Source: Apostichopus japonicus
Lineage: Eukaryota > Echinodermata > Holothuroidea > Aspidochirotida > Stichopodidae
DNA: 64,000 bases
Assembly: GCF_037975245.1 (NCBI RefSeq)
Contig: NC_092570.1
Span: 885,501 to 949,500, forward strand
Reading direction: 5' to 3'
In this document: one piece after another, positions 13,701-62,000 of the stretch
Layout of the letters: every line of letters begins with the position of its first letter
Position numbering within the stretch: position 1 is the first letter of the stretch
The notes under the pieces: generated by a model
Seen by the model: only the letters and a program-made list of their open reading frames with translations
What the model was told of the DNA's origin: nothing
Databases searched by the model: none
Position numbers and translations under genes: made by a program

Positions 13701-15192
13701 AGACCTACCTTCATAACTTCGTTAGGGAAGTCATCCTCTTCTGTATGAAATATGCTATGTGCTTTGTCGGTAGAGAAAGAAAATGGCGTCGTATAATGAA
13801 GACTATACACATACTTCTGGGCAAGACCGAAGAATAATGAACTTCGATCGATCATTTATTTCATCTGGTTGAGATCATCTGTCACACATTCAAACATTTA
13901 GTTCTCTTCATTAGCTTTAATAATACTAATAACAGTTAATTTATATCAAATACAGAAGGGAATAAAATATCACGCTTCTTGGTTTGATCGAGGTATTTAT
14001 ATACAAAATGGAGAAAAAAAATAAAATATTGTGTGCCAAACTAGAACTTAGATCAAACATGAAAATACAAATGCCCAAAATAAGTAAAATATTGGTACTT
14101 AATATAAAAATTGAGCAATACTTTTTAAGTATTATTATAGAAATTGTTCGTTAAAAGTTCTCGTTCTATAGAAATCAAGGTGATAAAGATGATGCTAATT
14201 TATATCCTTATCTAATTCCAATCAAATATAAACTACTGTGTTAATTTGTTAAGTATCAATTTAAAGCAAAAACGATAAAAACATATAGGTACGATATGAA
14301 ATTATTTGAAATCAAAGTAAAATAAAAATCGAACAAATACTATATTAAAATTAATGAAGCAAGTTGTATAAGAATACAGAACCATCATTCATTTAAGATA
14401 TCAATGTGAATAATGACAAACGGAGCAGTCATGATAAAAGAAAAAATCAAAACTTTGACTGAAATTGCGCTGAACCGCTAAAAGTTTTCTTCCAATGCCC
14501 ATATTCTAAATTTTACCCTTTTGTTTATTATAAACCAATTGGAATTGTTATAATAATACCTAAACTATTTGAAATCATTTCAATTCTTTCATTGTTCGGT
14601 CATGGCAAGAGAAGGCTGGAAAGAAGGATTGGGGTTCGTTATAGCTCACTATCCAAATTATTTATAGATTTTAGTTATCAATATTCGATTTACATATTTC
14701 ATGGGTAGTTTGTCTGACATCCCTACATATGCATAACGGTACACATGAAGTTTTTTGTTTGTTTGTTACGTGACATAATCCAATGATATGCCATGCACAT
14801 GCGCAGAAGGATTCATTAACGAAACACACATTCCTCTTTCGTAATCAACATGGCGTCCACATGACGTTTTCAACTTCCGTTTCAACAGTGTCCGTCGGCA
14901 ATGGGTCCTATATGACAATGCCACATTTCAACAGTGTACAATTAGTTATAACTCGAATATTTCCCGCCATTTGGCGAGGATAATCATAGACGACTAGTGA
15001 GGCTGTCTGTACATGCTAGTCTTTAAAGTTTAAGCGCATCCAGATTGGAAGACTGAGATGACTAGTTGCTTTTTTTTTTTTGGCGCTCCTCATGTTCTAC
15101 TTCTCAAATTCGTAAGTCGTCGTCTGCTCGGTTATATACTACGATACATCTTTTCCAAGGAAGTGAACATGTTTCCATGGCGACAAACAAGT
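10741..15192. other. Intergenic region between COG7 and the first MCT-like gene
   Basis: COG7 5' UTR and promoter sequence should lie just right of 10728. I see no further gene. Contents include a G-rich patch (11458-11486), a G-run (11894-11906), a GGATCC-containing repeat fragment (about 13425-13660) and a very AT-rich stretch (about 13860-14560). Short open frames here look like chance ORFs. The 3' UTR of the minus-strand transporter must lie just left of 15193; a minus-strand AATAAA occurs at 14524-14529 but is unproven as its signal. Confidence 0.6.
13425..13660. repeat. Putative interspersed repeat fragment with GGATCC-type ends
   Basis: The stretch has GCGGATCCAGG near its left side, GTTACACCCC shortly after, and AATCCGGGCC with C-rich tracts near its right side. 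Similar word combinations (ATCCAGGAT, TACACCCC, CTGGATCCGC with poly-C) recur at about 28415-28620 and 45530-45602. This suggests one old interspersed family. No clean termini or target duplications were found. Confidence 0.35.
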
Positions 15193-18100
15193 TCATCGGC
15201 AGTTTTTATCAGACTGTAAGACAGCGTTAGTAGCGCTTACTATGGAAATGACACACTTTCCAGAATCTTCCTCCTCAGCATCGTAGGCCTGATTTACATT
15301 TGCATTCTCTTCCTTCTTTCTCTCTTCATCATTGCTTGATTTAGTCACGTGGTCCGTGTCCTTGATATCTTCTTCGTGTGTCGATCTTCGTCTCTCTGTG
15401 ATCTCCAGGTAGAAGCTGTCACAGAAGACCACAACACTGGCCAGTACGAATGACCCTCCACACATTAAAAAAGACATGTCGTAGTTACTGGTAAGGTCGC
15501 GAATGAGACCTAAAATGTTGTAAAGAAGAATTGAAAATGAAACTATATAAACCATTACTACATAGTCATAGCCATAGTAAAATAGAATAATAATAATGAT
15601 GATGATAAGAATGGTTATTTGTTGACAGAAGATGTCACTACAATTATATATCTATTAATTGGATATTGAACTATACTATTATATTGAAGTAGAAATATAG
15701 ACTTGACCAAAGGAAAATTGAAGCTTGTTAAAATGAAAGTACGACTTTCCTCTTGCTACAGTTGTCGTAGTTACGTTTGAAGACTTCTAAAGTAAAACAA
15801 CTGCGGTTGTTGGTGTATAGCTCTTTGCTGACGTCATTCTATAGACTGTAATTGCTATCTCAAGCAAAACGAAGGGGATCAAATGGAAAATGGAAGAAAT
15901 GTACGGCATCGGAGACATTTCTGTATTTCTTGAAACTCAACTGCGATATAAACCTCATTTGTGACATTTAAATTTGTGACATAAAAGATGGTAAAATCAT
16001 CTCGTAATGATTATAAATATCGTGACGTCACTTACCCATGAAGAAGACACCGAAGAGTACACCGACCCCTTCCGATAGTAGGACCACGCCGATACTCGAA
16101 GAGACTTTATCCGCGGGTACACAAAGGCGAGCACAGTATACAGCCATGGAGTAAGATAGCCCCGAAAACAGTCCGAACCAGACAGCAATGGCAATCAGCA
16201 TGGAATAAGTACTAACGAACGGATTAGCAAAACTGAATAAAGAACAAAAGAGGTTAGCGATCCCGTAAAGGAATCGTGGTGACAAGATTTTAAAATCTAC
16301 GACAAATCCAGAGGCCACCCGGCCGATGATACTGCCAACACCAATCGCAGAAGTTAGATACGACGCTTGAAGTTTGGGGATATTGTTATCGTAAACAACT
16401 TTCGACTGAAAGAATACGAGTCCGGAGTAATAGCTGTAACCGACAAGAGCGTTAGCGATGCAGATAATCAAAAACCTGGGATGTTGCACTAATAGTTTTA
16501 GTCCTAGATTATCAGTGACTGAATGCACCGGAGCCGATATTAACTTTTCAAAGAGAGTCTCTCGATAAACAACGACGCCACTCTCAAGGGTAACTGAGCA
16601 ACGTTGACGTCTCTCGCTTGTCGTGACTTTCTTGGTGTTTTCTCTTTGCTTTATAAGAAACAGTTCTTTTGGTGTTGGTCTTACGAGCACACCACAGACA
16701 CTGGTCATCACCATGAAGGCACCAGTCACTTGCAAAGCTCCTCTCCAACCGACTTTGTTGCAAAAAAACTGAATCAGTGGCGGCAAAGCTACGATGCCCA
16801 TTCCTACCCCAGCAGACGACACCCCATTAGCCAATCCGAGCCATCTGTGAAAGTTGTAACCAATCGACGTCCACCCTGGTTGTAAGCATAAGCCGAGACT
16901 AATCCCTGAAAGAAATAATATAAAATTACTTACTTTTAGACAGTGTTAGTTTACTTCAGCGATATATTGGTAAATCAAGAGGTTACCAATAACCTGAAGC
17001 CAATTAAAACAACCGAGTAGGCAACGTGCTTATATAGGTAACCGTTTGTGTTAGATTTGAAATCATCAGTGCGCCAGTGGAGAATCCAGTACACTTCGTT
17101 CCCCTTTCCTCTACACAATGAGACGCCGATGAACGATATCCCCATGGATTTCTTACCCCAATTGCTTGCCCCCCCCCCCAACAAGCCCGCCCAAATGAGA
17201 TGACAGAAAGAACAAAACAATGTTATCACTACGCCAAATGAAAATATTATTGGCGTAGATGTTTATATTGTCGATCACATTCTTCTATCATTAGCACTGA
17301 CACCAACTGAATATATTGCAAGTCGACACGAGGAATACCTCTAAATCTAAATAACTTGCAGTTACTACTACAAACTCACTGATACCCCGGGATACCCCTC
17401 CTCCCCTCCTTGTGACATAGTTGTTTATGTTTATGTTTTGATATAAACTATAGATGTAAATAAAAGATTCACATTTGTTTTGACATATTTCTCAATGATT
17501 TTGGGCATACCTGCAATACAGTTCGTTATGTATAACTGCCACATATCTGAGGTAAATGAACCAGCTGCTACGGATGCCGCGAATAGCAAGCCCGCTATGA
17601 TAATGACTTTCTGGCAGGCGAGACGAGTAGCGAGGGCTCCTGCCAACAAGGCTGTGTGAAAACGAGAGAAACATTATTGGCTCAACTTATCATTTAAAAG
17701 AATCTGAAAGGTTGTACTCTTTGGGAGTATATCCCATTGACAGAGGTGTCAATTCCAAGGGAATGGTTGGGTCCGGGAAGGTGGGGGGGATGAGGGAGGA
17801 GGGAAGAGTAAGTTAGACTCGTATATATTCCCAAATTTGTGGTCTTTTTGTGGTTTAGTTATCATGTATGTATGCCACTACGTAAGGTAGTCTGTGAGAC
17901 TAACACGTTTCGCTTATGAGATGAAGAAGGTCGTGTGCCCATTTTTTTTTCCACAAAGAGTCATTATCTCTGATCTAAATTACCAACTGCAAATGTTATG
18001 GTATTGCAATTGCATGATTCCGTGTTCCGTTGACAAGTCTTTTTAATGACCAGCAATTGGGCAACCCCCCCCCCTCCCACCCCTTCCACCAGAATATGAA

Positions 18101-21100
18101 TATGCTTCCAAAACTTTCGATTTCAAAGAAACAGCTGCGTAACAAACCACAAAGTATAAATTATTTTCTAAACCGGAAAATATTCGGCACAGTTCCAAGA
18201 AGCTGTAACTCCCGTTCATTGTTTGAATGTCACGTGACATAAAATCCCTATAGTGATAGTAAATGACCTGTGCTACATGATCATGCTGGGCCTGACATAC
18301 TATCATATACTCAATATGAACGACCTTGTAGCTTCATTACTTTCGTTTTCATGCTGATTTTATGGAAATATCAAAACATCGAAATGACTTTATAGTCACA
18401 TGTCTTAAAATATTTTTTTCCACATAATAAATTAAATTACAACCTGGGTCAGTTCATATATGCTAACAATTTGACATGTGAATAATAACGTATTGATGAC
18501 GAAATCATTATTTATGAAAGTATTAATCTTCGTATGTGTAGCAACGTATTTACAAAATAATTATTATTCATATATTCATATCAACTTTTGATTCAGCATA
18601 TTTTAGACAATGAAGTTTAGCATTTTATTTCGTTTTTTAGTAGTCGTACTTTTATTACTTCTTCTGGTTAAATTTTATCGATTGGAAACTTCCTCATCAG
18701 GAAAATAAGAATTATACAAAATTTACTATAATTCTAACGTGATGTTTTCAGCAAAAATGTTAAAAATGTCGTTTTGCTTCCAAATATTAACTTTTTATTA
18801 TATCTATTTAGCCCAACTATACGTTGTAGACGTGCTAATGTTTCTCACAAAACCTTACGTAAAACCAAGTTATTAACATCAAAATGCAAATATGAGGAAT
18901 TAAATAAAGGCCTTGCCTTTGTAAAACTTAAGAAACCCAATTTTCATGAGAACATAACATATAGGCAAGTGTATACATTGTAACCATTCTACCTATTTCT
19001 GAAAACTCCACAGCCACTCCGCTATTCCATTCACCCACCCCGCATTATCCTACTTCACCCCACCCATGCACTGGCATGCAGGCCCATCACACCCCACGCC
19101 ATATACCCGGGTCACTTTATTCGTCCTATATGATGGGTCGTTATGAGTTGGCTATCAGATGGAGTCTTTAGGTCTAGACAAATAAGAAATGAGATTTTCA
19201 ACCTACTAGAACCGTTTTAAATGTATTTGAGAGAAGTATATTTCTCCTTTAAAATGGGCAGGGCATCTCTATTCAACCATTTTCCTTACATCAATTGTTA
19301 CCATTCCCTGGGCCTACTGCAACCGCCACCCCACCTCACCCATGCCTTCCATATACAGATCGATTTGTAACATTTCTTCACAAGCAAAGATACCTACAGC
19401 ACATCCCTGTTATTTCCCTTTCAGTGGTTTAACGGGTATACTGTTGTGTACTCACCTCCTACAGATGTAAAGAAGCCAATAATTACACCGACCCAACCCA
19501 CGTCTTTGGCATTGGCCCCAAAGTTCTCTTGCCATTCCACAAAAAATACACCAATTCCTTTCATATAACCTGAAAAATAATAATAAACAAACAAAATCTC
19601 ATTTTCATCATAAAAAAAGAGAGATTACGCAAGGGATTAATCCCTTAATCACCAGTAAAACAATGCCAACTGCGACATGAAGGATAGGGTCAAGGGTTAA
19701 CCTTGGCAGCTGAGTCGGTGTGAGCCAATAGATTAATTTTTAACCACCATATTTTGTCCAAGTTGAGCTCGAACCCGAGCTTGTTTAAATCCTCTTTTTT
19801 TGGGTTGTAAACAACCCAAATACACGAACAAGTAAATTCCAACTGCGACATGTAGGATAAGGTCAAAGGTTAACGTTGACAGCTGAGTCGGTGTGAGCCA
19901 ATAAATGTGCTTGGCTTAAGGGTCAAAGTTTAACTGTCACGAGATCTGAATAACAAAGCAATATTATTTCTTCCAAGGTTGTTGAGAAAAGATTGCCAAA
20001 TTTATAACAAAAAGGGCAAAAGTCAGAATTTAAAAGGGGGAGAAATTTTAGAAGGCGTTAAAGATGAATTATTGATCCCAAAGTGACAGTTGTATATTTG
20101 TAAAATAGTTTTTCATTAAGTTTGTAGCACGTGCGAAACCTTTTTTACTCTACGTGAAATTCAATCGAGTTATATTTCGTCAAACCGAGTCCAACCAAAG
20201 AGTTAAGATATTATGTTTCACCTGGTTTACTAACTACATTTGTCACTTCCAAGGTGTGGCTGGTACCTATACCTGTCTCTCCCGAATTCATTTGACTTAA
20301 TAATTCAAATAAATAATTAACTGAAGGTTATTCCTGTTTAGTACAATTTGATGTTATTTCACTATTTTTTCCGGTGTAGCAAATATTTATAATAAAGTAA
20401 ACTACCATTGTACTTGATTTTTTAAATGAAATTTCTGAAAACAAATGAATTAACACAGAGGGGGAAATGATTAAGCGGCTTGTCATGTGATGGTATACGA
20501 TTTGTGGCTCCTTTTAGCTCCATATTTAGGATGGTATTATCCAGCGTTACAACTGCTATCCTGGCGCAATATCACTGTACAACAATGTTAACATACATAT
20601 ACCAATCATACAATGTAAGAAGAAACCGTTCAGCGTTTGTATACACTATAAAACCGCCCTCTAAATTTCGCATTCGCAACCTTCAATTGCAGGTAACACA
20701 ATAAACAACATTGGAGTTTCCTCTTAAACTCTCATGTTTTGGGGAGAAAAGTAATGAAACCATTCAATCTATGGATCTCGTCACGGATCTATATAAGAAG
20801 ATTTTCAGAATTTTTTGGTGATATTTATAGGACACTTTCTCATCTGATACGTTCGGAACTGTCAATGCCGCTGCGGGTAATGTACTCACTCAGGTGGAGT
20901 TCAAAGGTGAGGTGAGCAAGTTCTTACTCCCAGGGCTGATTGAGGCAGGGGCGTGGATTGTTATTGGAAGGGTTAGAGGCAAAAGAAGGACTTAAAAATG
21001 TGTTTAATATAGCCATTATTGAAAAGTGCCAGGATGACAAATTATTGAGGATTTATTCAAACTCATTTTGGTGAAACAAACTAGAATGGTATCTTGGTGT

Positions 21101-21606
21101 GATTTTCCTAAATATGCGAACCAACCTCAGAAACGAAGAACGAAGAACATATGGGGCTATACCAGGGAGTTGTCATGGACCAACTCCCTGGCTATACAAA
21201 GAACCAATCTGCCTTTTGTCATTTTGAATTTAACCCTTCCGCTCTATACCGGCACCCACCCCGTCCTCATATACCCACCTCGTTCCATAATCTACCAAAT
21301 ACAGCAATAAACGTGGTTAATGGTTGAAAACATACCATCTCCTCCGAGTCAACATCTCCCCATGAACCCCCCCCCCCCCTCCCTCTCCACATCCCGACTC
21401 CAACAAACACACATAGGGAAAACGTTCAAATAAGTGGAGCAACTCCAATGTTACTTAATGTGAGAGCACATTACACGCACATGCTGAAATATAAAACAAA
21501 AGAATGTGTTACCTGCAAGTAGCATGGCATTAGTAAATGCGGCGGCAAGAACTACCCAGGCCCATCCTTTATCGGACGCCGTTGGTATCTCTCCTGGTTC
21601 CTTCAT
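15193..21606 (-). CDS. SLC16/monocarboxylate transporter-like MFS protein, complete (511 aa)
   Basis: Predicted plasma-membrane carrier of the major facilitator superfamily, MCT branch. Exons in transcription order: 21606-21513, 19569-19456, 17651-17511, 16905-16036, 15509-15193. All internal junctions are phase 1 and sum to 512 codons including TGA. The ATG has an in-frame TGA four codons upstream, and a 3' splice site at about 21631 implies a spliced 5' UTR. Family marks are the TM1 signature DKGWAWVV (residues about 12-19), the TM4-TM5 signature YNFHRWLGLANGVSSAGVGM, about 12 hydrophobic segments, a TM6-TM7 loop much shorter than in the paralogue at 33.8 kb, and an acidic, charged cytoplasmic C-tail rich in E, D and K. 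In TM8 the motif is VVDFKILSPR, so the Arg found four residues after the Asp in MCT1 is absent here. Substrate cannot be assigned; MCT9/12/14-like members are plausible relatives. Confidence 0.93.
19653..19903. repeat. Direct repeat pair, about 78 bp, offset 173 bp
   Basis: The segment at 19653-19730 recurs at 19826-19903. Both contain CCAACTGCGACATG and AGCTGAGTCGGTGTGAGCCA and differ by a few substitutions. They lie in intron 1 of the transporter gene. A local duplication or two copies of a small repeat are equally possible. Confidence 0.8.
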
Positions 21607-21840
21607 ATTGGAATATCACGTGGTTTCGTGCTGCAAAATTCAATGGTACGTATAAGACTGACCTCAAAGGACTACACATGAGAACTGACAGATTAAAATG
21701 ATAATTCCTAGACACTTGAAGAATCAAAGCGCGCTTTATCAAATAATGCTAACCTGACCACGCGGTGATGGAAAGTGACCGAACCCTTCGATGTCTAAAC
21801 CAGAACGGATCACTGAAACTACTGCTTAGCAACTAACGAT

Positions 21841-22203
21841 TAATACAATAAATAATAATAATAATTATAACACAAATATGGTGCTCATTATTGCACGTAA
21901 ACATACATTCAATGGCACCTTACAAAATCACAACCCTGGTCATTGGTAACTTGATACACCTACACACCAAAGTGTGCACAATTCAATCAATCTCTCCTGG
22001 GGCACCACAGTGCACCACAACCACGTGTCCCCCGGGGGACTTCCCATAGGGTGCAGCCACAAACCGGCGTACGCAACTATATTTACAAGTTACCTCGCAG
22101 GTTCCCATTTATACACCTGGGTGAAGAGAGGCAATGGAGATAAAGCGCCTTGCCCAAGGACACAACGCAATGATCTGGCCAGGGCTCGAACCTGTAATCC
22201 TTA
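21841..22203 (-). repeat. tRNA-derived SINE, minus-strand copy
   Basis: Read on the minus strand, it starts near a B-box-like ACAGGTTCGAGCCCTGGCC, continues with TGTGTCCTTGGGCAAGGC and GCCTCTCTTCACCCAGGTGT, and ends in an ATT/AAT-rich tail (21841-21868). The body matches, unit by unit, the plus-strand copy at 34841-35218. The A-box half is not recognisable, so this copy may be 5' truncated or altered. It sits just upstream of the minus-strand transporter's first coding exon. Confidence 0.8.
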
Positions 22204-22257
22204 GATCACATATACGCAAGGGGGCTGGGACGGCTTGCATTGATACTACGCCTCCAC

Positions 22258-22472
22258 CAGTGGCGTAACCAGGGGGTTTGCAGGGGGCGAAAGTCCCCGC
22301 TCTCAAAAGTTTCGCCCTCCCCCCCTGCTGCCCCAAATGAAATATGATAATACAATATAACTGAATAATTAGATATGGCGATACCCTATTTTAAACAATA
22401 TTGCCCCACTTGTCAATCTCTTCGACCCGCTCTGAAGCCCCTCTAATTAAGAAGTCATGTTACGCCTATCAA
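22258..22472. mobile_element. Possible short hAT-like non-autonomous element
   Basis: The left end reads CAGTGGCGTAACCAGGGGG, a form common at animal hAT-type element ends (recalled, not searched). The right side carries GTTACGCC at about 22459-22468, an inverted match to GGCGTAAC. The inverted match is only about 8 bp and I found no target duplication, so borders are approximate. The interior has a poly-C run and no ORF of note. Confidence 0.35.
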
Positions 22473-22486
22473 TGGACCATGCATAG

Positions 22487-22590
22487 ACCATCGGTCTCGC
22501 GGAACATCGGTCTCGCGGACCATATGTTAGCGGAAATTCGGTCTCGCGGACCTTCGGTCTCTCGGACCTTCGGTCTCGTGGAATTCCCCC
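22487..22590. repeat. Short imperfect repeats of a CGGTCTCGCGGAC motif
   Basis: The words ATCGGTCTCGCGGA, TTCGGTCTCGCGGACC, TTCGGTCTCTCGGACC and TTCGGTCTCGTGGA follow each other with a period near 17 bp, ending in a poly-C run at 22576-22584. The CpG-rich word is partly self-complementary (GGTC...GACC). It looks like a cousin of the subterminal repeats in the element at 24352-24713. Confidence 0.6.
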
Positions 22591-23952
22591 CCCCCCACCC
22601 CAGAGGAATCTCATGTGTTGTACATTATAAATTCATTAGAATAAATTAAACAATGTGAAGTTTATGCTCCTATCTATACGCTCAAGCCTAAGGCCTTATT
22701 ATGGCCAGAATGAAATCTTTCGTAAGGGGGGGGGGCTGAGGGGGGTGAGGGGGATTTGACCAACGGGTAACCTATTGAGGACCATTGTCAACACTATACA
22801 CACGACTGTATAGCTTTGATGATCACATTAGGTTGAGTATCATATAGAACTCTGTGATCTGGTAAAAATCTTGCAAACTGGCAAGAAAAGACGGGTTGAA
22901 ATAGATTTAAAATGTTTCTTTAATCTGAGAAGCGTCTTATAAGCTATAAAATCAAAAAAGATTTAGGTGAGATAGTGAACGAGAGTTTCTTCATATTTCA
23001 TATAGTTTACTTTTGAAGTTCATCAACAGATTGTTTGCATGGGAAAACACAGAGAAACCTGGTAGTATGGCACGGTGCCAAATTTGGTCCTGAAGTCATA
23101 TCTTTCCATTGGTCAAAAGGTTACCCCCCTGTAGAGACAGGTGAGATATTCAATACACTTGACAGTGAATGGTTCCAGGAATTGATTTAATCAGAAACTA
23201 TTTTCTGAAGAAAGAATTTTTGCAGCAAGAAAAACGTGACAGTTGTATCTCGGTTATTGAACCCATGGGTGTAGCTGGCATACATAATTATATGCTTAAA
23301 CGTAAAAGTCCATTCTACACGATGGCTTTACCATACAGTACCGACTATGGCATCAAATAAACTATAAACAACAACAACAACTTGGGGGGGGGGGGGTGGG
23401 TGAGGTTGAAACCGCTTAACAACTGACCCATCCAGCCCCTTAGTAAGTGTTGATCCCTCCATATCAATCCGTATAGATTACATAAACATACCCGAGGTCG
23501 GAGTTAAAGAGCCAACTAGGGAGGGATTTCTAAAGGGGAGGAATTTCTAAGTATTGAGGATTCTCATCATTGTGGGCGCAAGGGGTTTTATCCAACTTTT
23601 GTGGTTACTTTTTGTCATGTATGGAAATATTTCAAAGGAAAGAGGTTTTCTTAAAAAATATGATACAAAAATTTAATAAAAGAAGTTGGGATTCTGCACC
23701 ATTGGTAGACCCAACCTAGCCTAAACTGTAGCCATCTTAGTAGGTTGGAACACAAGATAGAGACATGGAAATTTGTGATGATTATTAAGAAATTAAAAGA
23801 AAATGAATTATTGTGTATAGGATGTGCATAACAGTGCTATCGTGGACATTTAATAATACTGGACTAAGTCATCATCAATTCTCAACTCCAAACTGGGAGA
23901 TTATATACGTATAAGGGGCCTATATACGTGATCTTGGTGAGTCACATTCATA

Positions 23953-24012
23953 TATTGGACACATCCCTATGTTCCGACGTCTCTATGTTCCGCGGTCGTC
24001 TCTATGTTCCGA
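23953..24012. repeat. Solo end of the CTATGTTCCGACGTCT repeat element
   Basis: ACATCCCTATGTTCCGACGT followed by two more CTATGTTCCG units is the same as the left terminus of the TIR element at 24352. No matching inverted end was found to its right before 24352, so it appears to be a truncated or solo copy. Confidence 0.6.
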
Positions 24013-24351
24013 CAAAAAGAAAAAATTCGGAGCATTTTTTTTCATCCCAAAATTTGGTTGTACCAAGAAAACTAGATTCACATTACGCAAGCTTTTAGTA
24101 GCGATCCTTGTGTAACCCCCTCAACCCATTCATCATGTTTTAAGTACGGTATGAACACATCATAGTAAATAATTATCCTTTGAGAATTGTTGGTTGAAAT
24201 AAAGTTGAATTAATTAAATAGCAGTTCACCCACGACCATATTCAGCTATACATCGGTATACAAATCAAGGAACGATTACAGGTCTTGTCATTGCAGCTCT
24301 CCTCTCCAATCTCGCTCAAACGCCGAAACACTCCTCAAAAAGTCTTTTACC

Positions 24352-24713
24352 GGTGACATCCCTATGTTCCGATGTTTCTATGTTCCGACGTCTCTATGTT
24401 CCGACGTCTCTATGACAATTTTTTTTCGGGGAATAATTTTTTTGGACCCATTTTTTTTTTGGGGGGGGGGGACTCAATTTTGGTCCGAAAAATTTTGGTC
24501 CGAAAAAATTTGGTCCGAAAACTTGTTGGTCCAAAAAAAATTGAGAAAAAAACCATTTTAGTCCGAAAAAATGTTGGTCCGAAAAATTTGGGTCCGAAAA
24601 ATTGGGTCCGGAAAAATGTTGGTCAAAAAAAATTATAAGTCCAAAAATTATTTCGTATTGTCGGAACATAGAGACGTCGGAACATAGAGACGTCGGAACA
24701 TAGAGATGTTACC
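24352..24713. mobile_element. Non-autonomous TIR transposon, 362 bp, 8-bp target duplication
   Basis: The element is flanked by CTTTTACC at 24344-24351 and again at 24714-24721. Its ends are inverted repeats: GGTGACATCCCTATGTTCCG on the left, and on the right the reverse complement of GGTAACATCTCTATGTTCCG. Each terminus continues as three tandem CTATGTTCCGACGTCT-like units of 16-17 bp. The middle is an A/T-rich array of about ten GGTCCGAAAAA words. No transposase is encoded. An 8-bp duplication with TIRs fits a hAT-type MITE, but the family is an inference. Confidence 0.8.
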
Positions 24714-24869
24714 CTTTTACCAGGCAATTGGAGATTACTTGATTGATAATACCAAGAAATACGAAGCCTTACCTCTATCAGCACTTTCAAATCAGCGTTA
24801 AAGACGTTTTATTTCAAACAAAACTATGGTTAAGTGTATTCAATTGTATTCTGTTTGTTTTGTTAAGCG

Positions 24870-24930
24870 CATTAACCCCTGGGATTTTGCGCTATATAAG
24901 CACCGGTAATAATAATAATAATAATAATTG
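24870..24930 (+). repeat. 3' tail of a SINE-like repeat
   Basis: TTGCGCTATATAAGCACCGG followed by about seven AAT units resembles the 3' end of tRNA-derived SINEs (GCGCTATATAA plus a trinucleotide tail). The 5' part could not be delimited. Confidence 0.5.
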
Positions 24931-25739
24931 TACTTCAAAGTGTTTCGTAAAAGCATGTCGCTACTCACGTGGTAGAACCACACATGCATGGCATTGGTGT
25001 TTCGTGCACATGCGCCCGCAAGCAACTCAAAGGTTCAAAGGGGCCATGCAACAGTAAGCTAACTGTTGACCGAATATAATACACCATATCATACTTTAGT
25101 GAAATCCTTAATCCCGCAACACTCCCATTGCTTACCTCAAGCACCCCGCTCACCACCTCGTTATCACCACCAACTTGCTTTTTTTTTCATCCTCTCCAAC
25201 CCCTCCACCTTCCCTACTCCCCCTGCCTGCCTCCTATTTTGACGAGAAAATGAGAAAACATGAACTAACGTTTTATTTGAATGAAATATATTCTCACCTG
25301 ATATAACGACTAAACAGTATCTCTTCTATCCAATGCTTTTGTCTTATGGTCTATACCGTCTGCAAAATGCGAAATCCTTACCAAATATCGTGTTGCAGTA
25401 CCATCGCGCCGGCTTTCACTAGAGCATAGAGACTGGGTGTACCGGTGAAGGATGTGCGAAACAAACCTTCAAACTTAAATTTATATATATATCTGTTTTA
25501 TCTTAACTTCATTTACAATTTCATATTAAATTCCAGTCATATTTCACTATGCATGCAGCTTCATAACCTCTTATCACCTTAGAGTTGGCACGTGGTGCGC
25601 CTCGAGCCTGTTGTTGACGCTTATGGTGGTTATATACTATTTTTCCATTGGCTAATCCAAAGGACAACTTATGACATTTTTGTTTTGTAACTTTAACTTC
25701 CAATCACGTGCCAATTCAACAAATACTAAATTATTTAAA

Positions 25740-25965
25740 TATCATCCCTAGGGGTGGTTCTTTGCCCAAAGGTGACGCCATAACTACGAGCGATACCCTC
25801 GATGCGGTCCTCGCTGACTCACCTACGGATCGTATTGCACATCCGCCAATCTCGAAACTTTTACTTCCGCGTAGCAACGCCGGTAAAACAGTGAAAAGCA
25901 CACTCTTCGATACCGGCCGTTTGAATGGCATGATCACGGAATGGGTTCTGTATGGGTCGTGATAT
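25740..25965. other. CpG-rich island of unknown role
   Basis: This 225-bp segment is distinctly richer in G+C and CpG than its AT-rich surroundings. Both strands stay open over it (plus 25708-25962, minus 25731-25973), but neither product resembles a family I know. Possibilities are an upstream promoter or 5' UTR exon of the minus-strand transporter, or a repeat fragment. I cannot choose between them. Confidence 0.3.
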
Positions 25966-27229
25966 ATATCCATGGACTTTATAATGTGTTATTCTGCGAC
26001 TTCATGTTATTACTGGATCTTACATTTCGCAAGGGTTTGGTTGGTCACTTTTGACATGACTTTTTTCTCGAAATATGAATATGCATAAGCGAAGTCATAG
26101 GTCAGTAAAATATATGTCAAAATTATCACTTGTCTGGTATAGTGTTCACGTATGTTGTTAGTTGTCTTAATTTGTTATTGTCATGTTACAAATAGATTGT
26201 AAATCACGTGAGCAGTCTGTCATTGTGTCATGGGAAAACTTTCCGCTCTTCCTTTACGGACAAATTTCGTTTACCATTAGGATAAATAGGCCTAACGTAC
26301 ATCAACACTATACATTACATAGCATATGCTGGAAACCATGTATCTTGATTAAACCAAAAAGCCTGAAGGCCTCGTGATTCCTTGTCTTATAAGTCTATAT
26401 ATGGAAACACCTGAATGGTAGAGCAAACTAATTAAGAAAATGTGTCCGAAAGACAAGTACCAGAACATCAGAAAAGAGTTCCAGATAACTTGACAATTGC
26501 AAAGGTATTACTCTTCGTTGCTGGAGTTATCATGTTTACAAAGTTGTCAGTTGACCTCAAATGACCATTCACGTCCACCGAAAACATTATTGGTGCATCC
26601 ATGTTTTACATATGGAGTTCATCCAAAGGCTACTCTGTGAACGTGTTTACAATGTTTTCAGACTGTGACCTCTGTTGACCACAAACGACCTTTGTTCTTA
26701 AGTTATCGTGTGTACAAGCCAAGGCGTAACACACATACTCCCACGCACACTTGCACACCACCACCATCGACGTGACATAGCGCAGGTTCATGTTGCCTCT
26801 GGCAAGGAATGAACAACTTTAACTTTAATGACGGTTCGAATCCCTAACAATTGTTACAGTGTATGTTTTCAACATGTCTGTAGACGTTTCTGACTTCATC
26901 CATGTTCACGCTTGAGGAAAACAATGCGCCATTTCTCCAGTCTACATAAACCACTAAGTCAATGACAATCAACATCGGGATTCGCTGAAACAGAGGGGTC
27001 GGTAGCCTGGTAGTCCCCATGGAATATTATGTCACCGGATCCTTTTGTTGTACTCTCAGTTTTTCTTAAATATAGTATTAAAATACAAATACACTTTTCT
27101 TTATTCCCTTTATTTCCGGGACTCCTGATTGAACCCGGGCACCAGCCCCTCCACACCTACACCCTCCACCCCTCCCCTGTCCCTGGTCCCGTCCTGACAC
27201 GTGTATTTGGTGCAACCAGGACGATGACG

Positions 27230-27316
27230 AGGGGAGGGATGGAGGGAGGGAGGTAGGGATGGAGGGAGGTAGGGATGGAGGGAGGCAGGGATGGAGGGAG
27301 GAAGGCAGGGAGGGGA
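27230..27316. repeat. G-rich minisatellite (GGGATGGAGGGAGG)
   Basis: Roughly four units of GGGATGGAGGGAGG with T, C or A spacers run from 27236 to 27310. The plus strand is almost free of C. The many GGG runs could form G-quadruplexes. Confidence 0.85.
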
Positions 27317-30300
27317 AGTCACATGTGGTTGGGCAAAAAACATGGAGCCCATTTGCTCTTCAGAATCAAAGGTTAGAATCCATTGTGGATATTTCGTCGG
27401 TGTGTAAGACTAGGAAGCTGTTTCATTTCCATTGTAAGACACTTATAGTTCTCATTGTACAAACATGTAATCACAACAAGTTAAACACCGTACTGAGTAT
27501 TTCGCAAGGTCAACTATTGGAATTTCTTCAATTCTCCAGCCAAATTTTCATCCCTTCTAACTGGTATGCTGGAACCTTTCGCAAAATAAGTTCCTAATTC
27601 AATTTATATGTTTACGTATTAACCGCGTCACCTCTTGTAAGGCAGAGAGAAATCATGCCAAAAATACACGAAGGGTATTACATCGTACGAGTCAAGTTGT
27701 CACCAATACCGAACTAAATAAGGGTAGGCCAACGAAAATATTTGATAGTAAAAGACTGTTGGAGGATCAAAGGTGATAGGTCAATTACAACCTTATAGGC
27801 TCATTTCCAAAAAGGTCAACTTCAAATTTTATTGATAAAGAAAATAACTTGTTTTTTCGGGTTTTCTCAGAAGTTTCAGTAGTTAAAGTTATATATATAG
27901 TGAACTCAAAAAACTCAAATGGAAAGGAAAAAGAGTGTATTTTCCTTCACAGGAAAAAAAGTGACAGAAAAAAATTGGTGTCATATTACGTATATTTTTC
28001 GATCAGTTTTTGAATGAAGATCATCTGTTCAGTGGAACTTGACCTAAGTTTTCCCCTATGTAAAAGTAATCTCCGCTATTTCAACATTTGAAAAATTTCC
28101 TTGAAAAAGTCACTATTGCTTCTGGAAGCACTTGTTTGCCTCGCTCTATTATTTTTCATCGATATTAAAATCCTGTCACAAAGAATTTTTTTAGCGTCTT
28201 TCATTTCAAGTATGAAGGGACAACAATTACCAACTTTAAAGTATTTGTTACTTGAATCTTTAGTTTCCTTCATTTGTTATAAGCCTACATGGAAGTGTCT
28301 TAGCGACATATTTGATAATTCAAACTCAAGTGTGCCCTATAAGCGCGCATAATTATGGAACAGGCATGGGGAGTATAAAGAGATTTTCAAAGGTGGAGGT
28401 GGGGGGGGGGCATAGGCAGATCCAGGATTTTATAAAGGGTAGGGTGTGTACCCTGAAATTGAGGGGTATGGGGGTTGGGGAACTCCCCCACAGCCAGAAA
28501 ATCACAAGTTTAGTCGTCATAAACGGGACATAGGATGCACCAATAAGTATACTTTCGAATTTTATGTAAGGTTAAAAATGGAGCGTTCAACCCCCCCCCC
28601 CCCCCCTAGTTGGGTTAGAGACGTATGAGTAAGCCCATAGTAAAGTAACACATGTAGAATATCAAACGGTTCGAAAAAGTATGCAGCTTCCCCTGTCGTG
28701 TAACGTCAGTTTCATAAACCTAGTTTTATTTTGTGAAAGTACTCGTAAAATACTCGTCCTGAGCAAGTTGCAAGTACTTTAAATCGAGTATGAGAATCCA
28801 AGGATTTCGTACAATACATCCGGGCCGGTAGCCACGGGGGTGGGGGATTGCCTTAGAATTTTTCTTACGCCCCCTATCCCCATTTTGTAAACATTTTCGG
28901 TTTCAGTAATGGACCCCTGTGATGGATCCATGCAAATGTCCCCCTCAACAAAAATTCGGCACCTCCAAGTCTGTCTGTCCAAATTTGACAAGCTGGCTAT
29001 GCGGGCCCGAATACATCTGTACTACGCGTACAAGTTTGTATCTGGTTTTGGGCACAAACACGCAGAATGTGTTTGTTTGAAGTTTTCAGTCGCTCTCTCG
29101 TTGGAAATGGGCCAACATCTTTACTCTTAATACTAAAAAAATTTCATATCATGTACTTATCGTGCTCGTATGCACGTATGCATTAGCCCAGTTACAACCG
29201 ATGATGGTTTCACTACAATGAGTTTCTCGGCTGAAAATGTTTTTTTGTGGATTTTACCATTCAATAACAAAATCACATTACAATCGTTGACTTGAATATG
29301 AGAAGAAATTGCTCGGTTAGCGAAGTAAAAACATTAAATCTCTTCTTTTCATTATTATTACATAGACCTTGCAAAAAGGCTACAATTTTTAAAATTTTCA
29401 CTAAACCGAACTGGTATCCGTCTCCGGGAAATTCGCCTGAAAGAAGGGAGAAGGTGGACAGTGGACACAACGTTGAAATAAGTCGTATCTTTTTTGTTAC
29501 TATAAAATGGGTCTTCGTGGACACGCATTTAAAAAGAAAAAGTTAATACATCGAAAGTTTGAGATCATCTATAGGTCTACCCAGAAAATGTTGCCACCAT
29601 ATCATAAAAGTCCGGTAGTGTCCTGTCTATTGGCGCTGATAAGCTTTAACATTTCCAGAGTTGATCTGATGTAGGATGGGAGTGGAAGGGGGGGGGGTAG
29701 GGGGCCCTTTCGATTTACAATGACTTCGTGGATAATTTTGTGAAAGATAGTGGGCTCGTTCCAATCGGGAATCTATTTTTGTTTGTGTTTTTGTCTTTCG
29801 ATTTACCATCTGTATCAATGCGTTGCTGACTAATAGTTTATCCGTCAATCGCCAAAGGCATTTGGAGGTGAAAGCGAGGAGTACCTTCGTTGCGCTTGAA
29901 GTTTCTTCAGAGGAAACTGCAAAAAGGGTGAACACTTTGTGTTATGGTTTTTCATCGTGGAATCTCCAAAAACGAGACACCGCGTATTGACGACGCTATT
30001 GCTATCAGAGTCATAGATACGGTTCAGTTTGCCCAAACTCCCTGCTATGCCTTTGTGCATAGAAATTGACGTTGCTATGCCATTGCGTAAGTCCGCTAGA
30101 GAGGGCGCTATTACCAAACATTTTTTAGTAGTATTTCTCTGCCCTGAAATGTTTCAATCTACCGGATAGATTCAAACTGTTTGGCGATAAAAATTGGGTT
30201 GGATGTGTTTTGCTTTGGGGTTTTCTTTTTTGGGGGCGGGGGGGGGGGGTTGGAAGGAGGGATTCGGCATAAGATGTTCTCCCGTAATCATGTCCTGGCT

Positions 30301-31267
30301 GTAAACAAAACATATAAGCTATAACTGACCGTGAGCACGTTATAAAATAGTGACGTACTTAGGCGGGATTCGTCAAGTGAATGACAGAGAGATTGAAGAA
30401 CTTCCAGTAAACGATATTTTCCATCGGTCTGTGTTCTCTTGTTGATTTATTTACATGGTAAAATAATTTAAACTATATACAAGTATTTGATGATTGATTT
30501 TACATTTTAAATTTCATGAGACCTACATCTTCCATATTCTGCTGCAGACGTCCCTGATGCAACAATAATTATAAACTAGACTAAGCATTCTTGCTTGTCA
30601 CATCTAAACCTTGTGTATGCATATGAATCTTCAATAACAATATAGCCTAGCGGCATTTAAACCTGCGTATGGCATATCATTGGGATGGAAACGTCCTCTT
30701 CGTGCAGAGGGAGTAAATTTATGTTCTCTACCTCCACCTATCTCCCCTTTCCGGTAGCATACGCCCATTAAAAGCCCCATTGACTTACACACTAAATCAC
30801 AAAAGTAATGTCTTCTCTAAGCCTAGATAGAAGTTTTCACTTGCTAAACGCTACCCATCACTGGATAGCTGACAAGTTGGCCTTTCATGGCACCTTCAAT
30901 TTTCCGTACCATGACCATGTAGATTTTTGGCTACGAGAGCCGGAACTTTTCGTCACTTGTAAACAAACCTCTCCACTCAGTGGTAAACAAATTTCCTACG
31001 CTGCTCCTTGGAGGCCTAAAGGGGTCTAAAATTGCCTCAATTGACCCAATTTTTTAACCACATGTGCTTCCATTCATGTTCTTTAACATCAAAGCCACAA
31101 AAAAGCACATCCTAATTGATAACATAGCAAAAAAGTTGTTCTCCTGTTCCTAATTGGCACTTTTCCTGAAGGAGAACATTTGCCGCGGATTGATATAGAG
31201 GCTAATAGGAGTATGCCACCTTCCTGTTTTCCCTACTAATCATTCCTTCTCCCTATCCCCTCCTCTA

Positions 31268-46380: not shown

Positions 46381-47040
46381 TCTAGTTGCGATCAGATTGT
46401 TTCCGATGAGCTAACAATAAACAGATGGCATAGCAGGAAGAATTTAGAGGACTAACAATATATGATGAGCTTTCTTGGGTGAACTATATCACAAATCTTT
46501 GTATTTCTCGGGTGAAGTATATTATTTGTACTTTTTATCACGTATTAAGGGAGGTTCCTCCCAAAGCTACAATGGTTCAAATATGTTATTTATTTATTTA
46601 CTTCAAGCTAAGGTACGCCTTTGAGATTTATGTTACAACTAACGGATCATACTTCAGACCACATAAAATCCTGTAAAGTAGATTAATTTAAGCTACTTAC
46701 TCATATATAGACCAGCTCTCGTTATCCTATACTTGTATTCTGTACAAGGAGAGTAATTTGCTCATGATCAGTAAGATTCCTACTGCATTCAGTGCTGTTT
46801 TATTTATTACTATTGTAACAATAAGTTCCAAGATGTGAGCCATACCAGTGTTTCCAAATATACAGTAACTCGGCATATTACTCAGTATGATAAATTACTC
46901 CTCAATTACTACTGCTTCACCTTGTGGCAGTCCCTTTATTCTTCTCTTCAAACTCCTAAGTAACGTAATTCTTTTGAAAAGGAAACTGATGGCAGAACTT
47001 GTAAGCACTTATATGTAAGGTAGTTACATTCCTGTCCTTC

Positions 47041-47190
47041 TCATGTTAATCTCTTCTTTCTCATGTTAATCTCTTCTTTCTCATGTTAATCTCTTCTTTC
47101 TCATGTTAATCTCTTCTTTCTCATGTTAATCTCTTCTTTCTCATGTTAATCTCTTCTTTCTCATGTTAATCTCTTCTTTCTCATGTTAAT
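47041..47190. repeat. 20-bp tandem repeat, seven full copies plus part
   Basis: TCATGTTAATCTCTTCTTTC repeats without change at 47041, 47061, 47081, 47101, 47121, 47141 and 47161, with a partial eighth at 47181. The perfect identity points to recent expansion. Confidence 0.97.
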
Positions 47191-52777: not shown

Positions 52778-53027
52778 TTATTTAACCAACTCTACATCTG
52801 AACCTAGGACCCTGCATATATGATCATCTAGTTCAACCAGTTCTATAGTCTTCCCCAAGTTTCTTTCCAAAATGCCGGACAGAAGGTTCGGTCCTAACAT
52901 CGCCGAGCTCTCCATTTCCTCTCTGGTTATGCTGTACACTGTGACGTCTCGATGGTTGTAGAGGAAGTCTGGTCGTCTCATGTCTAACCTCTGTAAAACG
53001 TCACTCAGAAGCAGCCAATTTGAAAAC
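52778..53027 (-). CDS. BCOR: BCOR-like last exon: PUFD domain
   Basis: This exon encodes 82 residues and the stop. NWLLLSDVLQRL at the start and VELDDHICRVLGSDVEL at the end match the first and last strands and helices of the BCOR PUFD fold. In the family this domain pairs with the RAWUL domain of PCGF1. The 3' splice site CCAAAG and the single base completing a Lys codon from the preceding exon fix the start. Confidence 0.93.
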
Positions 53028-56000
53028 CTTTGGAGGGAGACGAAAGATTTAAGCAAAGAAATATAAATATAAATACAAACATAAATATGAATAATGAATA
53101 TATAGATATAAATGTTGTTTAAGAAACTGGTTACACAATAGATATAAACAAATGTTACAGAGGACAATATACCACAACTAGGCTTGGCACATAGATCTTG
53201 AACCACATAGTTGGAAACTGAAATTTTTATAGAGAGCCTTGGTATATGGAAACAAACTTTCTACTTTTAGATTGGTAATTTTTCCTGCTTCTAAAAATGA
53301 GGGGAGAAGGGGTGGTGTACAGTTCACATGAGGAATATGGTGGAGTTATGCAAGGGGAAGATTGAGGGACAGGCCTGTGTCTTTTAATCCTGTCACAAAC
53401 TGAGGCCACTAACTTAAACTTTCAACTTCTGATTAAGCATCCTTGAAACAATAGCACAGGAAGGAAAGTTTACAAATACAATTGACTACAAAGTGGTTCC
53501 AAAGTACTATCTTCTGATATGTTTTATATTTTTAGATTATTGAATTCTTTTCTTGCTTTTTTTTTCCCCTTTCAGTTTCTTAAATCCTTTCATCTGGTGG
53601 AAGTGGCGTTCATGGTAAACAGCTTACGAAGAATTTTGTAAAATAATTGTTATCATTTTCAAGAATAAATGTAGCATAGTAATTAAAACTGATCTCAATC
53701 ACGTTCTTGATCAGTCATCGTCAATCTTTAATTTTAATTCCACAGATGCTCAGCTTGGACATGAGCAAAGAACCAACACTCCCATCATGTCTACTCACTT
53801 TTTAGGTTCGTCCAGATACATAGAAATAGAGGGCAGCAGAGGCTTGTCGCTGAGTTCAAACATGAGTTCGTCATCTTCGTCTTCTGGCGGCGACGCTTCT
53901 GGAGCACCGGTCATGAAGTCAATGCCAGTCTGGACTAAGTCCTCTGCAAAAAGTGAGGTCAAATCAAAACTGATATTTATTACCAACTGCAGTGAGGAGG
54001 AGGAGGGGCAAATATCAGTCGTGATTAGCATGATTAATTAGTCCCTAAGGCATTTGCATCACAACAGAAAGAGATTTTTCACTCCTGGGTAGATTATTTT
54101 GGGACCTAAGGTTCCTCACAAGGTTAGGTAATTTATTTTTTTTTTTATTTTATTTATTTATTTCCAGTATAAATATAAATATTTATAAAAAGGACATCAA
54201 AAGTGAGTATGTAACAAGAAATTATTTTAAAATGTTAGTGTACAAAACACAAAAACAATAAATAAAAAAAATATATATATATATACATATATATACACAT
54301 ATACACACATACATATACACATATGTACACATATATGCACATACACATATATACACATACATACATATACATACATATACATACATATACACATATATTC
54401 TCAAATTGCTTCAGCTTGTGACATGGAAATCTGTAACGTTTGTTTGTCTGATTAATGGACTAACCAAGCGATGAATGGTACTAGTAAGGGGGAGACAATA
54501 CTCTATTGTTATAGAAGGCAGACTGAATAATACATACCTGATGTTTGGAGAGAACTTTGGAAGCGAATATTATAATTGATGTTCTTGAGACCCTCTAGCT
54601 CCTCAACTGGAGCCAAGAAACGACCATTGATATCCTTGAGATACCCTGGGAAAAAAAATCAAATGAAAAAACTCTATGACTGTTTATTTGGGATACAGGG
54701 TTGGGTGTTGGGAGGGTGGGGAAGTGTGGGGGTTGGGAAGACCTACTTACCATGTACGATTGCTTTTGTCTCCTTAGATCGAGCTAGTTTCCTTGTGGAT
54801 CTACCAGCATATGGGGGGTGGGGGTGAGGGTGGGGTTGGGGGTGGACAAACCTACTTACCATGTACAAGTGTTTTTGTTTCCTTAGACCGAGCTAGTTTC
54901 CTTGTGGTTCTACCAGCATACAATGGTGGGTGAGGGTGGGGTTGGGGGTGGACAAACCTACTTACCATGTACAAGTGTTTTTGTTTCCTTAGACCGAGCT
55001 AGTTTCCTTGTGGTTCTACCAGCATACAATGGTGGGTGAGGGTGGGGTTGGGGGTGGACAAACCTACTTACCATGTACAAGTGTTTTTGTTTCCTTAGAC
55101 CGAGTTAGTTTCCTTGTGGTTCTACCAGCATACAATGGTGGGTGAGGGTGGGGTTGGGGGTGGACAAACCTACTTACCATGTACAAAGTGTTTTTGTTTC
55201 CTTAGACCGAGTTAGTTTCCTTGTGGTTCTACCAGCATACAATGGTGGGTGGGGGTGGGGGGGGGTAGACAAACCTTCTTATCATGTACAAGTGTTTTTG
55301 TTTCCTTAGACCGAGCTAGTTTCCTTGTGGTTCTACCAGCATACAATGGGGGGGGGGGGAGGGGGTAGACAAAACTACTTACCATGTACAAGTGTTTTTG
55401 TTTCCTTAGACCGAGCTAGTTTCCTTGTGGTTCTACCAGAATACGTCGCTATAAGAGGATCTCCTCCGTGGGCCAGGAGCAGACGACCGAGTTCAACCTT
55501 TTCGTTGTCAATAGCATCGTGGAGGGGTCTGAAACGTGGTCATATCATAGTGTGACTCTTTATTACTTTATTCCACTTAAAAAAAATCAAATTAATTATG
55601 AAAAGAGAGAAAAAGTTTGTTAATGAATTGACTTACTCTACTAAAAAAAAAAAACGTATCTAGAGGTAAAATTGTAGCTGGATCTTGGCGAACAGAGAGT
55701 CCAGGAAAGACGGTCCTGCAAAAATTAAAACAACTGTTCTGTTCTAGACTTTTGTATGTCACAAATTTCTGACTACTTCTCACTCAGAGGTATACTCTCA
55801 TCAAATTATCCAATCAAATTGTATCAGTTGCCTCTTTGGACTGGAACAGCTCACTGGCTTAACATTTCTTGGACTTTTCAAGTTGTACAGAATGCAAACA
55901 CAACACAATACCTTTAATGAGCAAGTACTAATATTAACATTTGGTAACCCTCTGAAATATCTACACCCCCCCTCCCCCCCTTCTGAATTCCAAGTCCTCA

Positions 56001-59000: not shown

Positions 59001-62000
59001 CTTACCTCTAGGGGGTGGAGGGATGGAAGGGCTTGAGTCAGGGATAATCCTGGCCTTGAGTAGCTGTAAGCAAAAATATGAAATGATCCGTGAACTTTAT
59101 AAATGAACGAGGTAAGTAAAGTTTCAGAAGATAGAATTCAATAGAGTCCAAAGATCAATTCAATATTTATCTATTGATATGAATTATACACTGTTTGAGT
59201 ATTGCCTTGCCCTGCCCTTGTAAGAAACACTAGCTACATGGAGTCCTCAATGACCCCTTACAGCATTTTTTGTTAAATTTAGCAACTTAATAAAAGCCTT
59301 CCTGTCAATGAAGTTTACCACCAACCATGGAATGGAGTGTCAACAGTCACAAGATTGTAAATACAAAACAAATATATGCAAATGCATGGAAGCTTTCATT
59401 TGCTAACGAAAAAAAAAAGGACCTTTAGAGTAACTAAGAATTGGTGATCAACAGTTTACTAATTGTGTCTGTTTTGAAAACATACCAGCACCACACCATC
59501 CAACTAATATTTTATCCCACAAACTCACCCTCCTTCTGACCTCAGTGCCTCACGGCCGCTGTCTCCTTCCATTCAAACACCATACAACACATTCGTACTA
59601 ATGACACACAATCACCATTCAAACACCATACCAGCACCACACCATCCAACTAATATTTTTTCCCACAAACTCACCCTCCTGACCTCAGTGCCTCACCGCC
59701 GTTGTCTCCTTCCTATCAAGCACCTAGCAAACACCATACAACACATTCGTACTAATGACACATCACCATTCAAACACCATACCAGCACCAGACCATCCAA
59801 CTAATATTTTATCCCACAAACTCACCCTCCTTCTGACCTCAGTGCCTCACCGCCGATGTCTCCTTCCTTTCAAACACCTAGCAAACACCATACAACACAT
59901 TCATACTAATGACACATCACCATTCAAACACCATACCAGTACCAGACCATCCAACTAATATTTTATCCCACAAACTCACCCTCCTTCTGACAGCAGTGCC
60001 TCACCGCCGCTGTCTCCTTCCCTTCAAACACCTAGCAAACACCATACAACACATTCGTACTAATGACACACATCACCATTCAAACACCATACCAGCACCA
60101 GACCATCCAACTAATATTTTATCCCACAAACTCACCCTCCTTCTGACCTCAGTGCCTCACCGCCGATGTCTCCTTCCTTTCAAACACCTAGCAAACACCA
60201 TACAACACATTCATACTAATGACACATCACCATTCAAACACCATACCAGTACCAGACCATCCAACTAATATTTTATCCCACAAACTCACCCTCCTTCTGA
60301 CAGCAGTGCCTCACCGCCGCTGTCTCCTTCCCTTCAAACACCTAGCAAACACCATACAACACATTCGTACTAATGACACACAATCACCATTCAAACACCA
60401 TACCAGCACCAGACCATCCAACTAAGATTTGATCCCACAAACTCACCCTCCTTCTGACAGCAGTGCTGCCCCGCCGATGTCTCCTTCCTATCAAACACCT
60501 ATCAAACACCATACAACACATTCGTACTAATGACACAATCACCATTCAAACACCATACCAGCAACAGACCATCCAACTAAGATTTTACCCCACAAACTCA
60601 CCCTCCTTCTGACAGCAGTGCTTCCCCGCCGATGTCTTCTTCCATTCAGATGCATTGCAAACAACCCAGATGTACTTGGCTTATCAGTGTTAAAAGACCA
60701 ACCAGCAGCGCTTCCGACTAATCTATTTCTGTTCATCGGTGACGGCCACATTTTCCCTTCCCTCTTTGCTGGTTTCTTGACGTGCGACACCACCTGCCAA
60801 TCACCACTTTCGTGGAATTTTCCAGTTAGGTCCTTCCTTTGAATCCGAACTTTAAGTTCGACGTGGGGCGACATTAACCTTCTTTCATAATCCTCGTTGG
60901 TGTTGAGGCTGTCTTCGTCCTCTACACCACAATCGCCACCGTCCATGACTATCTTTGTTGATTTCGTACTTGGCGGTGGAGAAGAGGACACTTTGCACCT
61001 CCGTCTTCTCGGGGATTCTCTGGTCTCTTCGCTGCTGTCATACTTTTCGTTTGCTTTTGGTAACTTCACCTCTTGGCATGGCTGTCCCATCTCGGCTTGT
61101 AAGCCCTGCTTCCTTAACACGGCTGTCCTCCTCCGTCTTCTCTCCATCACTTTCTGTCTCTCCTTCTCTATCTCCTGTTCGTAACGGTCGTCGCGGTGAT
61201 ATGACGATGCCATGGCTGCCTGCCGTCCTGAGGGAAAAAAAACAGCCAAAAACTGATGGGTGACCACTTGCCGATGAAAAGTAAAATATATTGCAAGAAT
61301 TTGATAGTGAAAGTAGAGCTATCCAGCAGGCTATGACAAAGAAAATTCCTTCTTAGGACGAGAAGTACGAGGAAGAGATTTAGAAAGGTAGTCATGTAAA
61401 CAAACAGGAGAACAGGAAAGATTGAATTTGGGCAATACTTCCTGACTACTTGAAGCATCAACTACAAACTAACACCGGTAAAAAATCAGACTAATTGACT
61501 GGAAAGGCTACTGTTTGTGTATTTACTAAGAGTATGTCTTACTTCTGCCATCCGCATTGCGAGTCCTCACTTGCAAAACCTCTGGGCTAAAGTCCTCATA
61601 TTTAGGTTTCATCGCGGGGGCTGGTGTCCTACGGACTTGCGGAGGCTTCCGTTTAGTACCTAAATGAAATATCCCCAAAAGTCTTTGTCAGTTGCCAAAT
61701 TTTTGATAACCATGAATGTATGGTAACAACCCATTTATATACAGTAAACTACTACAATTGCACCTTGCAAAAATATTACTGACTATTACTAATTATTGGA
61801 GAGATGGTATGTTTAGAGGAATACGTTACATTAGTCTGCCCCATTGTAGTAAAAAAAGTTGTGAGATTTATTCAAAGCTCATAATTTCAATCCAATGCTG
61901 ATTATTAAGGTGACCATTCAATTTCCAGATATCCATAAAAGTACTTGGTTTAATTAATTTTCATACAGGATTCCATGTGACCATTTAACAAATATTGGCT

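Follow-up and report, generated by a model that had tools for sequence, protein, structure and literature searches.

A border-spanning minisatellite of the mirage type in a BCOR-like gene of Apostichopus japonicus, with signs of similar arrays in other genes

The window analyzed here, 64,000 nucleotides of the holothurian Apostichopus japonicus (assembly GCF_037975245.1, contig NC_092570.1, positions 885,501 to 949,500 of the forward strand; coordinates below are those of the window unless another contig is named), carries on its minus strand a BCOR-like gene in which the end of a coding exon, its splice donor, and the start of the following intron are repeated in tandem. The exon is internal and exactly 626 nt long (61227 to 60602, minus strand), recognized from its length, its open frame, and its pyrimidine-rich acceptor, ttttttttccctcag; its 208 codons are open and end in phase 0 at the donor GGAGG/GTGAGT, where the slash marks the exon-intron border. 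Behind it, in the part of the array that lies in the intron (59481 to 60601, minus strand), stand seven further units, each made up of exon end, donor, and intron start. An initial annotation, made from the letters alone, had described a 626-bp exon followed by seven such units, an arrangement borne out by Tandem Repeats Finder (TRF), unit alignments, and a motif search. TRF reports a 154-bp unit between 59574 and 60648 (6.9 copies, 93% matches) and also a 310-bp register between 59481 and 60648.

The sequence GGAGGGTGAGTTTGTGGG, sought with up to two mismatches, occurs eight times in the window. Every copy is exact and belongs either to the array or to the end of the exon; 100 shuffles yielded 0. 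The donor GGAGG/GTGAGTTTGTGGG is identical in all eight places, is found nowhere else in the window, and is absent from the shuffles. Every further unit does carry the donor of the exon (8/8 GT donors), as had been proposed. The last exon or exon-like bases before the eight donors are 60602, 60447, 60290, 60136, 59980, 59826, 59675, and 59529, giving successive spacings of 155, 157, 154, 156, 154, 151, and 146 bp (range, 146 to 157 bp). With its flank, the exon-proximal donor occupies 60589 to 60606 and the seven distal copies span 59516 to 60451, all on the minus strand. The additional GCG/GTGAGG donor-like site that the initial annotation had noticed is present in five of the seven units that follow the exon (59691 to 60317, minus strand; after 60315, 60161, 60005, 59851, and 59697 in the unit alignment); on a weight matrix it scores 5.7, and the main donor scores 6.5. 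The earlier estimate that each unit repeats about 40 exon bases holds for the clear similarity, which covers about 45 nt, and may be too short for a weaker one that could extend to about 80 nt (shuffle P values for six units, which are related to one another and were left uncorrected, of 0.0005, 0.001, 0.0035, 0.005, 0.021, and 0.128). Judged from the alignments, some of the apparent intron in the unit may be degraded exon, to a limit of about 80 nt. When one unit was compared with the whole genome, in a search of a kind that passes over very common words, it returned nine matches, all of them inside this array and none in the 106-bp array described below.

The array also retains traces of its own history. 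Across the seven units that we aligned (the partial eighth, at 59529, was excluded), identity ranges from 84 to 100%: units 60290 and 59980 are 100% identical, while units 60602 and 59675 are 84.1% alike, 59675 having diverged furthest among the aligned units. The inner units are homogenized and the edge units diverged. Self-comparison at a shift of 310 reveals an exact match over 315 bp (59758 to 60382, minus strand), the counterpart of the higher-order register. Because two units are identical and the exact match runs for 315 bp, recent copying of a block of two units is probable; the exact repeat also suggests recent change.

Only the exon-proximal donor keeps the reading frame open. A transcript that skipped it would meet an in-frame stop at 60541 (60539 to 60541, minus strand) before the second donor, and all seven distal donors sit behind an in-frame stop. 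Use of a distal donor would therefore be expected to yield either a protein without the ankyrin repeats and PUFD domain of the gene or an mRNA open to nonsense-mediated decay. From reading the sequence, and without homology support, the probable next exon lies at 59006 to 59063 (minus strand), with a ttacag acceptor, a gtaaga donor, and a frame that continues in phase 0.

The identity of the gene comes from its downstream part, in which ankyrin repeats (Pfam PF00023, E = 2.6e-07) are followed on the same strand by a PUFD domain (Pfam PF16553, E = 1.9e-10) in an open frame at 52778 to 53260 (minus strand), an order that we take to be the arrangement of BCOR. The 626-nt exon itself matches no Pfam family, its link to the gene being strand and reading frame. 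A companion array with a 106-bp unit lies on the last ankyrin exon (54741 to 55444, minus strand; TRF, frame, and unit alignment), with donors after 55383, 55283, 55178, 55072, 54966, 54860, and 54751, of which six of seven retain an intact GT and one, after 55283, is dead (GT to AT). All six distal places in this second array also lie behind an in-frame stop, the stop falling two codons past the proximal donor. This array, too, repeats an exon end plus its donor, and its sequence is unrelated to that of the first, which upholds the initial claim that the same type of duplication happened twice in one gene. Two border-spanning arrays in a single gene are unusual, but the genome seems to hold more such arrays.

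We scanned the genome (35 contigs, including the mitochondrial one, with 671,581,487 bases in all) for tandem donor motifs, using the same motif read backwards as the control. Three exact copies of CAGGTAAGT at spacings of 82 to 112, the only spacing class for which the loci of both motif and control were listed completely, gave 52 hits at 10 loci against 37 hits at 6 loci for the reversed motif; single motifs number 8,084 and 5,473, a ratio that the 10 and 6 loci match (binomial P = 1.0). When the 82-to-112 and 146-to-176 classes are taken together, there are at least 15 distinct loci against 10. The 146-to-176 class yielded 126 hits against 30 (at least 8 distinct loci against 8), with hits among the matches listed falling mostly in arrays on C22, C9, and C2, and the 113-to-143 class, counted as hits rather than loci, yielded 179 against 31, with a single C3 satellite accounting for the 100 matches listed. 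We read the four- to sixfold raw excess in these two classes as a matter of array length, not of locus number. A scan for three copies of GGTAAGT gave 1,023 hits against 1,268 reversed, and among the matches listed, which reach as far as C2, many are overlapping hits in an 18-bp satellite. Tandem donor motifs thus track the ratio of the single motifs, and the earlier suggestion that recurrence within the gene betrays a border-specific mutational mechanism or selection for donor arrays finds little support; the genome scan disclosed no excess of tandem donors over singles, although as a sample of motifs it has little power and a modest border preference is still possible. The C3 satellite (about 10.93 to 11.21 Mb) has a unit of about 147 bp, lies on both strands, and holds an exact CAGGTAAGT in many units.

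Twenty loci were taken from these scans for closer reading (10 from the 82-to-112 scan, 5 more from the GGTAAGT scan, and 5 more from the 146-to-176 scan, with the satellites on C1 (18-bp) and C3 set aside), and at 7 of the 20 the sequence makes an exon-end array likely. The clearest is L024 (C2:28048938-28050349), where a match to Pfam Kri1_C (E = 5.6e-28) ends at the residue adjoining the donor and the exon end of KRI1 plus its donor is repeated in 54-bp units. Its exact donor motifs number at least 25 in succession, and among the ladders backed by homology in this analysis it is the longest; the tail beyond the array also looks like KRI1. At L007, a BCR-like exon has a weak PDB match (E = 0.064). 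The remaining five, L005, L010, L011, L014, and L017, were called exon ends from an open frame and an acceptor; PDB and Pfam searches of the first four returned no match, and the likenesses of L010 to VPS39 and of L005 to a fibronectin fold are presumptive. L005 units have only about 11 nt in common with the exon, and at L017 (C2:5701100-5704800, local positions 2468 to 2975) a transmembrane-like exon is repeated over approximately its final 75 nt, in a 102-bp unit. The L017 units also contain an internal CCTAAACAG, which could act as an acceptor in every copy.

Among the 19 arrays with readable upstream sequence, nine have an open frame of at least 50 amino acids there; for 40 single motifs, taken consecutively from C1, the number is 13 (Fisher P = 0.39). 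Letter-shuffled upstream sequence yields 50 amino acids in 9.3%. The 79-amino-acid frame of L009 falls within its array, and without it the count is 8/19 (P = 0.56). Four of the 13 single-motif frames (L061 to L064) resemble one tandem gene family, and when these are counted once the values become P = 0.15 for 9/19 and P = 0.37 for 8/19. L020, with an 89-amino-acid frame, belongs to the nine but is not one of the seven loci read as likely exon ends, and no frame of at least 50 amino acids was found at L006, L008, L012, L013, L015, L016, L018, L019, L021, or L022. The L023 array exceeds the stretch that was fetched and is not among the 19; adding it gives 10/20 (P = 0.26), and adding L067 too, the sequence upstream of the sixth GGTAAGT-scan locus (C2:6712339), which has no open frame of 50 amino acids, gives 10/21 (P = 0.28). 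The difference leans toward more exon ends in arrays, and a modest border preference is possible. L023 itself (with L065, C22 at about 21.52 Mb) is an 87-bp array of about 35 copies with a donor motif in each, and L065, upstream of it, has an adjoining 77-amino-acid open frame.

Arrays that multiply donors are known from other animals. The minisatellite of human IFI6 (6-16) reportedly offers several donors to the interferon-induced transcript; its unit is said to be 12 bp long with alternative donors in use, as against about 154 bp in A. japonicus. The nearest relatives of our array in kind are the lancelet "mirages" (Adh3 and the globins BflGb6 and BflGb9, named for TnC and likened in PGBD5), which two reports describe as border-spanning minisatellites that leave regular splicing undisturbed by reverse transcription-PCR (PMC3087553, PMC3902484). 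Like them, the A. japonicus array consists of tandem units of exon, border, and intron in which splice signals are multiplied, edge units are diverged and inner ones homogenized, and here too more than one gene of the genome seems to be involved; the BflGb6 unit, at 150 to 160 bp, is even of similar length. Two lancelet haplotypes differ in copy number (PMC3087553, PMC3902484), and the A. japonicus array may prove polymorphic as well. Unlike the lancelet cases, ours is from an echinoderm and comprises two unrelated arrays in one gene. Tandem repeats at exon-intron boundaries of human duplicated genes have been linked to novel introns, with half of the variable repeats in coding sequence (PMC2812944); in A. 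japonicus, by contrast, the copies lie inside an existing intron. We recognized no report of such arrays in an echinoderm in echinoderm-aimed and general searches covering mostly titles and the openings of abstracts, with few subscription papers, and within that literature the name "mirage" was found for lancelets only. The accessible parts of a Holothuria glaberrima genome paper (PMC13228809) and of a study of an abalone intronic minisatellite (PMC6905558) do not describe such arrays.

We favor, with a probability of about 0.8, the reading that the array is a border-spanning minisatellite of the mirage type, spliced at the proximal donor and near neutral. A tandem duplication that started in the exon and ended in the intron would place the extra copy entirely within the intron, with the exon and its donor still whole on the 5' side, and because of this selection would scarcely see a duplication across the donor. 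Unequal exchange would then enlarge the array, the latest step being the 310-bp two-unit block, and the exon-proximal donor would be spliced, with the copies leaving along with the intron and being, for that reason, nearly invisible to selection. That the proximal donor alone keeps the 208 codons open supports near neutrality, and the array is most likely harmless. Several observations weigh against this reading: an invariant 19-column run stands at the eight identical donors, a conservation among units that selection could also produce and that is not significant (column-shuffle P = 0.055); the odds that both arrays in one gene span donors are about 0.01 for random positions (0.112 to 0.14 times 0.066 to 0.083, with 8 to 10 donors assumed, a crude placement picked post hoc); and six of the seven other exon-end arrays are without strong homology support.

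Selection could instead keep the donor array, if distal donors were used in some tissues and the resulting premature stop tuned expression of the BCOR-like gene, or if repeated U1 sites blocked early polyadenylation. Eight intact donors, a stop that follows from every distal one, and a second array in the gene would all suit such a role; the dead donor of the 106-bp array, the P value of 0.055, the similar array in the unrelated gene KRI1, and the normal splicing of the lancelet cases (PMC3087553) speak against it, and we consider it quite unlikely. We see no convincing sign that the donors are under selection; weak selection is possible. It is also unlikely that exon-intron borders are preferred start sites of tandem duplication in this genome, an idea that would account for two unrelated arrays in one gene, for likely exon-end arrays at 7 of 20 loci, and for the direction of the open-frame comparison. 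The gap in open frames, however, is not significant, with or without the related single motifs merged, and the locus counts (10 against 6 and at least 15 against 10) are in line with those of the single motifs. A role for the array as an intermediate of intron or exon gain, its unit copies being recruited later as cassette exons or alternative 3' exon ends, has been put forward for lancelet globins (PMC3087553), and new introns have been reported for human border tandem repeats (PMC2812944); by our reading no pyrimidine-rich acceptor precedes the exon part of the unit, and use of a distal donor meets a stop, which makes this proposal highly improbable here.

Some repeats and fragments elsewhere deserve a brief record. 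Between 22489 and 24706 the window holds several arrays with 15- to 16-bp units, two of which are partly reverse complements (CTATGTTCCGAC at 24362 and GTCGGAACATAG at 24660) and flank a AATTTTGGTCCGAAA array, perhaps as transposon ends; at 47038 to 47190 lies a 20-bp tandem repeat of 7.7 copies with 100% identity. On C29 (about 14745 to 31219), fragments resembling COX1 contain in-frame TGA codons; they probably represent mitochondrial DNA in a contig that is nuclear or unplaced. Open frames on the mitochondrial contig give the order COX1-ND4L-COX2-ATP6-COX3-ND3-ND4-ND5-ND6(-)-CYTB, later ND1-ND2; we take this order, and AAA codons at sites of conserved Asn, to be echinoderm features.

More broadly, and tentatively, tandem duplication in this genome may freely cross exon ends, with possibly hundreds of ladders in which identical donors number from 3 to at least 25 and the proximal one would nearly always be spliced. 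Donor choice would then depend on exon context rather than on the strength of a site or how far it lies from the acceptor; "hundreds" is an extrapolation from 5 likely exon-end loci among the 10 in the 82-to-112 class, an excess of about 2,600 CAGGTAAGT motifs, and an assumed 100,000 donors. Repeats of the mirage type are now found in an echinoderm, a second phylum, with signs of them in several genes of one genome, and they carry the warning that several tandem donors in a gene need not imply regulation. The donor ladders can serve as natural experiments, both for the choice of 5' splice sites and for border duplications as a possible source of new introns.
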